Shown here: piece after piece, positions 28,143-30,463 of the stretch
Layout of the letters: every line of letters begins with the position of its first letter
Numbering within the stretch: the first letter of the stretch is position 1
NCBI GenBank assembly: GCA_012523135.1
Contig: JAAYJD010000204.1
Coordinates: forward strand, 1 to 40,644
Direction of reading: 5' to 3'
Source: Clostridiaceae bacterium
GTDB lineage: Bacteria > Bacillota > Clostridia > Saccharofermentanales > UBA5734
DNA: 40,644 bases
Program-made: the position numbers and the translations under genes
The notes under the pieces: model-generated
The model's input: only the letters and a program-made list of their open reading frames with translations
Database searches by the model: none
What the model was told of the DNA's origin: nothing

Positions 28143-28457
28143 ATGCAGAATCAAGAACGCAATGAGCGCACCCACAGCCGGGATATGCGCATCCAGGAGC
28201 CCTTTTTGAACCATTGCCGGCGGGACAAGATCCCGGTGACCATCGAGATGGTCGACCGCAGCGAAAAAAACGGCCAGATCATCGGGTTCGATCATCAGGC
28301 GATTATTCTGGAAGATGAAAATGGTCAGAACATGATCTACAAGAGCGCGATGATTGCGATTCGCCCGCGGGAGGCTGTCAATTATATCTTCAACGATGCC
28401 TACCGCCAGGAGCAGCCCTTAAAGGGCTACCCGGAATACCCCGCAAATTTTTCCTAA
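28143..28457 (+). CDS. hfq: Hfq-like RNA chaperone (divergent)
   Basis: IQEPFLNHCRRDKIPVTIEMVDRSEKNGQIIGFDHQAIILEDENGQNMIYKSAMIAIRP aligns to the Hfq Sm1/Sm2 core; located directly after miaA (classic synteny); SD ggagg. Confidence 0.88.
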   Translation: MQNQERNERTHSRDMRIQEPFLNHCRRDKIPVTIEMVDRSEKNGQIIGFDHQAIILEDENGQNMIYKSAMIAIRPREAVNYIFNDAYRQEQPLKGYPEYPANFS

Positions 28458-29048
28458 AACCTGGCATTCAGGCGTGTCAAAGGGAATGGGGCTGTATGCC
28501 GGATTTTCCGGCATCAGCACCATTTTCCCGTCGACGTTGGCCAGGGTCTTGACGGTCGCCTCTTCGCCGACTAGGGCGACGATGATGTCGCCCGGCGTGG
28601 CGGTGCTCTGGCGCCTGACAATGACGTAGTCGTTGTTCAGGATCGCGGCGCCGACCATCGAGTCTCCGTGCACCTTGAGGGCGAAGACATCGCCGTCATC
28701 GGCGAAGAAGTCGGCTGGGAAGGGGAGCGAGCGCTCGATGTTCTCGTGGGCCAGGATGGGCACACCGGCGGTGACTTGGCCGACAACCGGCAGGTAGACC
28801 GGCTTGTCCTCGAACTGGTCCGGAATCGTGATCGCCCGTCTTTTGCCGCTGGAATAACAGATCCGGCCAGAATCCTGCAACCGCTTGAGATGGCCGTGGA
28901 TCGTCGAGGTCGAACGGATGCCGACACCGGCGCATATGTCGCGAACGGCTGGCGGATAGCCTTTTTCCCGGATGTAGTCTACAATAAAATCGTAAACGAG
29001 GTTGACTGTGTCGTCAACATTGGCGCGGGTGAAGCGGTATGTGGACAT
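28419..29048 (-). CDS. lexA: LexA repressor
   Basis: GYPPAVRDICAGVGIRSTSTIHGHLKRLQ DNA-binding region; VTAGVPILAHEN cleavage region; GDSMVGAAI and EATVKTL peptidase motifs. Confidence 0.97.
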   Translation of the reverse strand: MSTYRFTRANVDDTVNLVYDFIVDYIREKGYPPAVRDICAGVGIRSTSTIHGHLKRLQDSGRICYSSGKRRAITIPDQFEDKPVYLPVVGQVTAGVPILAHENIERSLPFPADFFADDGDVFALKVHGDSMVGAAILNNDYVIVRRQSTATPGDIIVALVGEEATVKTLANVDGKMVLMPENPAYSPIPFDTPECQVLGKICGVFRVAL

Positions 29049-29089: not shown

Positions 29090-29118
29090 ATTGTAACAAG
29101 CCTGTTTGGTTTTGTCAA
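29090..29118 (-). promoter_or_regulatory. Promoter of lexA
   Basis: Minus strand TTGACA (29113-29118), 17 bp, TACAAT (29090-29095). Confidence 0.75.
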
Positions 29119-29129
29119 ACTTTTGTTCG
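29116..29129. promoter_or_regulatory. Candidate LexA (Cheo-type) operator of lexA
   Basis: Minus strand CGAACAAAAGTTTG, close to the Gram-positive CGAACRNRYGTTY consensus; overlaps the -35 box of the lexA promoter. Confidence 0.65.
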
Positions 29130-29220
29130 CCCAAACAAACAAGAAATAACGGCGGCAGGTGAAATGTGGCGCCAGATACGCTATAATCACTTGTGACATT
29201 GCTCGATTGCGAGGAACGGT

Positions 29221-29790
29221 ATGGTGGTTGATCAGATTAAAAAGGCGGCCAGGCGCATCGGCAGCAAGATCCAGACGGGTTTTGCCGTGCTGGGTGAGCA
29301 GCTGCGCGCGTTCGGCGAGGCCGTTTCCGGACGCGTCAGGACATGGACTGACGCGCGCCGCAGCCACACGGCGCAGGCCCCGATCCGGCGTGTCGGTCTT
29401 GAGAACCGCCTGGACAATACCGCCCAGGTGACGCAGCTGATCAACCAGAACAAGAAGTCGCCCAAACGGATCCGCCCGATCCGCCGTCTCAGCCGCCAGC
29501 GGGTGTACCGGCTGCAGGGCTATACAACCGTCTCCAAGATCAACAGCCGCAGAAAATCGGAAAAGCGCCAGCGCCAGCTGCGCCAGCTGCTTTTGTATCT
29601 GATCATCATCCTGGTGGTGATCATGCTGTTTTACCTGTACAACCCGATCCGAGATCTGGCGGAGTGGTACCGGATCATCGGCATCCGTGATATCAAGGAC
29701 CTGACCGGAACGACCGGATCCCTAACACCGTCGGTTTCACCAGCCCTGACACCCACGCTAACTCCCACGGCGATAACGCCCACATCCTGA
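29221..29790 (+). CDS. Hypothetical single-TM protein with a long basic cytoplasmic N-terminus and a T/P/S-rich tail, divergent from lexA
   Basis: Own promoter GTGAAA-17-TATAAT (29159-29187); very basic region KKSPKRIRPIRRLSRQR...RRKSEKRQRQLRQ, then TM LLLYLIIILVVIMLFYLY, then a T/P/S tail. No family recognised. Confidence 0.7.
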   Translation: MVVDQIKKAARRIGSKIQTGFAVLGEQLRAFGEAVSGRVRTWTDARRSHTAQAPIRRVGLENRLDNTAQVTQLINQNKKSPKRIRPIRRLSRQRVYRLQGYTTVSKINSRRKSEKRQRQLRQLLLYLIIILVVIMLFYLYNPIRDLAEWYRIIGIRDIKDLTGTTGSLTPSVSPALTPTLTPTAITPTS

Positions 29791-29883: not shown

Positions 29884-30435
29884 TTAGCGGCTTTTAGCCT
29901 CTTCCGGGGCCTTCCGGCGCAGTTGATTGACGTCGCAGGTCATCAGAACCAAATCCAGCCAGCGATCCTGTTTCCAGCCCACACGCGGCAGTTGGCCGCT
30001 GATCACAAATCCGAATTGTTCATGAAAGCGAATGCTCGCTGCGTTGCCGCTGTCGATCGCCGCGACGATCGTCTGCAAATCACTGCGGGCCGCCTGCTCC
30101 AGGATCCGCTGCATCAGCTGTTTGCCGATGCCCTGGCCTGCGTATTCCGGCAGCACGTAGATCGAGTTCTCCGCACTGGGCCAATAACCTTCTGGTGCGC
30201 GAAAATCCGACAAGCAGCTGTATCCGACGATCCGGTCCTGAGCGACGGCCACCCAGACCCGATGCGCCGGCGTGTCCTGGTGCTTCTGCAGCCAGCTTGC
30301 CGTCTCCGCCAGGTCCATCGCCCGATAGCGCCAGCTGCTGGTCGTATGCCGGATAAACCAGACCATGAGCGCTTGAATCCCCGCCGCGTCCCCATTTTGG
30401 GCAAGCTGGATTTGTACGTTTCGAGCTTCTGGCAT
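29884..30435 (-). CDS. GNAT family N-acetyltransferase (phosphinothricin acetyltransferase/PhnO-like)
   Basis: IRHTTSSWRYRAMDLAETASWLQKH; SIYVLPEYAGQGIGKQLMQRILEQA; GNAASIRFHEQFGFVISGQLPRVGWKQDRWLDLVLM; ATG at 30435 with AGGGG SD. Confidence 0.9.
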   Translation of the reverse strand: MPEARNVQIQLAQNGDAAGIQALMVWFIRHTTSSWRYRAMDLAETASWLQKHQDTPAHRVWVAVAQDRIVGYSCLSDFRAPEGYWPSAENSIYVLPEYAGQGIGKQLMQRILEQAARSDLQTIVAAIDSGNAASIRFHEQFGFVISGQLPRVGWKQDRWLDLVLMTCDVNQLRRKAPEEAKSR

Positions 30436-30449
30436 AAACTGTTCCCCTA

Positions 30450-30463
30450 CGAACAAATGTTCG
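30450..30463. promoter_or_regulatory. Perfect LexA (Cheo-type) box upstream of the GNAT gene
   Basis: CGAACAAATGTTCG, with perfect CGAAC/GTTCG arms matching the Gram-positive LexA consensus; lies 15-28 bp upstream of the GNAT ATG. Confidence 0.75.

Follow-up and report, generated by a model that had tools for sequence, protein, structure and literature searches.

The open reading frame (ORF) that diverges from lexA in the window, i.e. the whole 40,644-nucleotide stretch of Clostridiaceae bacterium DNA analysed here, had been proposed in an initial annotation to encode a LexA-controlled SOS membrane effector in the place of YneA. Our analysis leans towards another explanation, in which the ORF encodes a single-copy core membrane protein specific to its order, is transcribed from its own sigma-A-type promoter independently of LexA, and serves as an accessory of the cell envelope or of cell division. 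As part of this explanation, which we hold with moderate confidence, its place beside lexA would reflect inherited gene order and not shared regulation. The features on which the argument rests are collected in Table 1.

Table 1. Features of the lexA–ORF region (positions are those of the window)
Feature	Position	Strand	Remarks
lexA	28419-29048	-	Pfam LexA_DNA_bind 4e-14, Peptidase_S24 9e-33
lexA promoter TTGACA-17-TACAAT	29090-29118	-	11/12 matches; TTGACA at 29118, TACAAT at 29090; -35 overlaps LexA box
LexA box CAAACTTTTGTTCG	29116-29129		One mismatch from CGAACNNNNGTTCG; assigned to lexA autoregulation
ORF promoter GTGAAA-17-TATAAT	29159-29187	+	GTGAAA at 29159, TATAAT at 29187
ORF	29221-29790	+	189-aa single-pass membrane protein of an apparently order-specific family
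RVYRLQGYTT codons (aa 94-103)	29500-29529	+	Most conserved motif, cytoplasmic juxtamembrane
TM helix codons (aa 123-140)	29587-29640	+	Predicted N-in/C-out
NPIRDLAEWYRIIGI codons (aa 141-155)	29641-29685	+	Conserved outer juxtamembrane segment; smallest homologue (L028) stops here
Codons of variable C-terminal part with T/P/S-rich tail	29686-29787	+	Tail SVSPALTPTLTPTAITPTS
GNAT acetyltransferase gene	29884-30435	-	ArsN1 family B is the closest curated model, with a score below cut-off
Perfect palindromic LexA box CGAACAAATGTTCG	30450-30463		Just ahead of GNAT gene start

The ORF encodes a conserved single-pass membrane protein

The product is, as first described, a basic 189-aa protein without a LysM domain, with one hydrophobic stretch at residues 123–140 and a C-terminal T/P/S-rich tail, SVSPALTPTLTPTAITPTS. 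The promoter claimed for the gene was likewise found, the SD sequence GAGGAA precedes the ATG, and most loci of the family-level group have a perfect TATAAT at the ORF. In the AlphaFold2 model a single long helix spans residues 102–140 (pLDDT 91–97), the rest being of low confidence (mean pLDDT 64 and pTM 0.30 for the whole protein).

A single-sequence search gave a homologue for 20 of the 23 genomes in the family-level group and for 163 of the 188 across the order, including 102 of the 106 good ones, with a copy number that is almost always one. On a profile re-test of 28 genomes, which took in several of the single-sequence misses while five unlisted misses lay outside the set, all 17 good genomes were positive. 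When the profile was run class-wide (391 genomes), good scores, of 1e-13 or better, were limited to members of the order; matches outside it had E values of about 1e-4 to 1e-3, covered mainly the TM part and were taken as noise. Judged by these searches, the family appears to be order-specific, without members in the rest of the class. Pfam, NCBIfam, PHROGs, PADLOC and PDB returned nothing credible for the 189-aa protein, with no Pfam family over cut-off, suggesting a previously undescribed family that has no name and yet seems near-universal in the order. Comparison of the ORF with its nearest relative gave a dN of 0.11, a dS of 0.45 and a dN/dS of 0.24, and 40 of the 72 differences fall at third codon positions. 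The low dN/dS, the third-position bias and the presence of homologues in nearly all good genomes indicate that the ORF is a real gene, and it is under purifying selection.

The core consensus from 100 members reads [RK][VI]YxLxGYTT - TM - P..D..E...(I/M)xG. Its strongest columns are those of the first motif, about 20 residues ahead of the TM helix, where Y, G, Y, T and T are each found in 94–97 of about 100 members; the P..D..E...(I/M)xG segment directly follows the helix. The N-terminus is highly variable across the family, and the smallest member, a 95-codon frame, stops directly past the last motif. Since the median net charge of the family is +9 in the 40 residues preceding the TM helix and 0 in the 20 following it, an N-in/C-out topology is predicted, with the basic N-terminus in the cytoplasm and the short C-terminus outside. 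Two homologues from genus g4 (L029 and L031) carry a long acidic, proline-rich N-terminus and are extended at the outer C-terminus by roughly 160 aa, possibly an added domain.

The ORF occupies the yneA position without homology to YneA

The gene order at the locus is mutS-mutL-miaA-hfq-lexA<>ORF. The adjacency is conserved among relatives: the ORF is divergent from lexA in 80 of 100 loci, while in the remainder lexA lies elsewhere (11), is missing over cut-off from the genome (6) or the locus is cut by a contig end (3). In the Clostridia sampled outside the order, the lexA-divergent gene usually encodes a TM+LysM protein of YneA type, one of which scored 62.4 bits against the YneA model NF010723 (cut-off 60). 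No match to this model over cut-off was found in 186 genomes of the order, and the matches below cut-off were mostly LysM parts of long proteins. As YneA stands at this position in other Clostridia, is missing from the order by this measure and shows no homology to the ORF product, the yneA position does hold a non-homologous occupant. The ORF product resembles YneA, a LysM division suppressor, in chromosomal position, divergence from lexA, its single TM helix and N-in/C-out topology; it differs in being larger and mostly cytoplasmic, in lacking LysM and profile homology, and in having no LexA operators on the effector side.

The LexA box at the locus belongs to lexA

The box described as lying about 30 bp upstream of the ORF -35 is present, its end being 29 bp away; what had been overlooked is that it overlaps the -35 of lexA. 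The same holds for nearly every locus at which a box can be recognised, where it is arranged as CGAACNNNNGTTTGACA-17-TAnnnT over the lexA -35, and the f2 group has a variant box, AAAACAAATGTTCA, likewise near the lexA end. The gap between box and ORF -35, meanwhile, is as small as 2 bp at some loci and exceeds 1000 bp at others. The centre of the box in the window lies about 72 bp before the ORF start site, which is beyond the usual polymerase footprint, and no LexA operator was found at the ORF's own promoter. The number of boxes also separates the two kinds of locus: at least two are present at 17 of 23 YneA loci versus 2 of 57 ORF loci (Fisher p 1.4e-10), or 17 of 22 versus 2 of 38 when only loci with a box are counted (p 9e-9), these p values being only indicative because the genomes are related.

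Rearranged loci point in the same direction. In genus g29 (L081–L111) lexA and the ORF have a DUF1492 sigma-like gene between them. The box has remained at lexA, none was found near the ORF behind the inserted gene, and the stretch from that gene to the ORF contains a TATAAT-type promoter. Nor is the ORF restricted to genomes with lexA. Six genomes lack lexA and keep both recA and the ORF (completeness 96% for G031, 90% for G032, 93% for G033, 95% for G061, 86% for G068 and 99%, on one contig, for G072), and at least five of them count as good. In the five whose locus was read, the ORF is still downstream of miaA, and lexA is gone from its place between miaA/hfq and the ORF. The lexA-less genera fall into two family-level groups, so that more than one loss of lexA is probable.

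The lexA box comes within 2–18 bp of the ORF promoter in a few genera, and in one of them (L020, L022, L023 and L026) just 2 bp lie between it and the ORF -35, so that LexA could repress the ORF there. By geometry, box number, separation and lexA loss, the ORF is nevertheless mostly LexA-independent. The proposed LexA-controlled SOS effector is thus not supported, since the sole box is the operator of lexA, stays with it when the ORF moves, and the ORF is kept where lexA is gone. Of the related proposal, a non-homologous functional replacement of YneA, the position and the lack of homology are supported, whereas LexA control and an SOS role are not. With no LexA site of its own and with its retention in lexA-less genomes, the ORF probably encodes a housekeeping protein of the envelope instead of the damage-triggered division blocker usual at this position.

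Alternative explanations

We considered whether the ORF could still be an SOS-induced division inhibitor that replaces YneA, with LexA leaving a shared operator and the protein then blocking septal wall synthesis. The precedent is SosA of Staphylococcus, which is lexA-divergent, lineage-specific, has a single TM and no LysM (PMC6851548), all of which it shares with the ORF product. The absence of YneA from the order by the NF010723 search, the ORF's hold on the position YneA has in other Clostridia, and, in some genera, a distance of 2–29 bp between box and ORF promoter would fit as well. However, no second operator was found for the ORF, the box in the window sits at about -72 of the ORF start site, and the ORF persists where lexA is gone, so that its retention does not depend on lexA, and also where another gene has been inserted. 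The layouts also disagree. SosA has 77 aa with a TM at 10–30 and a functional outer C-terminus (PMC6851548), and both it and YneA work via their outer C-terminal parts, whereas the ORF product has its TM at 123–140 of 189 and its conservation peak at 94–103, in the cytoplasm. We therefore regard this explanation as unlikely. Descent from YneA by strong divergence, with loss of LysM and acquisition of a cytoplasmic N-terminal part, would account for the common locus and for the basic juxtamembrane segment ahead of the TM in both families, but no NF010723 match was obtained for the protein and profile–profile comparison gave nothing (probability 5.7%, one aligned column), by which we rejected homology and consider such descent highly improbable.

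Two further roles were weighed against the same data. The positive charge ahead of the TM helix could suit a role in binding nucleic acid or ribosomes close to the membrane, yet such charge is expected under the positive-inside rule, and the far N-terminus is not conserved and is D/E/N-rich in some members; we think this improbable. An anti-sigma-like regulator of the DUF1492 sigma-like gene is suggested by genus g29, where that gene is oriented as the ORF, but in the other genera read it is not beside the ORF, and a promoter stands between the two genes where they do meet; this is the faintest of prospects.

A possible accessory of envelope or division machinery

Under the favoured explanation, that of a LexA-independent core membrane protein, the ORF product would assist, as an accessory protein, the machinery of the envelope or of cell division. 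The cytoplasmic [RK][VI]YxLxGYTT motif may dock a cytoplasmic partner or be modified by one, and the TM helix with the P..D..E...xG segment may contact a membrane-bound synthase, much as MacP does on PBP2a. Single copy, selection, order-wide spread and a cytoplasmic motif with two threonines together suggest an accessory through which a membrane machine is connected to a cytoplasmic partner or kinase. MacP, the PBP2a activator, consists of a cytoplasmic domain, a C-terminal TM and few outer residues (PMC10746261), a layout that the ORF product shares without a significant sequence match: it scored 18.7 bits against the MacP model NF038277, below the cut-off of 45, and kinship was rejected because three of eight segment shuffles of the protein also matched, reaching 16.2 bits. 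In one genome an ORF copy lies 9 bp downstream of an LCP cell-wall ligase gene, but such a neighbour occurs once, and the other relocated copies follow an M18 aminopeptidase gene or lie elsewhere.

Other LexA targets and significance

Two other genes appear to be better LexA targets than the ORF, as judged from their upstream sequences. The GNAT gene next to the ORF is likely a true SOS gene: besides the perfect palindrome in the window, two further members of the genus have one-mismatch boxes near its start, while genus g8 has no LexA box at this gene. On contig C9 (G000:C9:22737; L001 1440–1850; L214), two LexA boxes flank the TTGACA promoter of a gene for a 102-aa protein with an N-terminal TM. 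A search of 58 genomes from the order gave no relative of this protein, which may be regarded as this genome's best candidate for an SOS membrane effector. Most other matches to the LexA pattern in the genome are intragenic and occur at about the rate of a control pattern.

The operator counts and the regulator-less genomes make the ORF a clear case of a conserved position beside a regulator without regulation by it. More tentatively, and with low confidence, a new membrane protein may have moved into an ancestral SOS effector slot next to lexA, turned into a constitutive core part of wall synthesis or division throughout the order, and outlived SOS in several lineages. These findings raise the question of how the order halts division after DNA damage without YneA, and a near-universal, unannotated membrane family with a sharp motif would be a good target for envelope studies in this uncultured-rich order of anaerobes.
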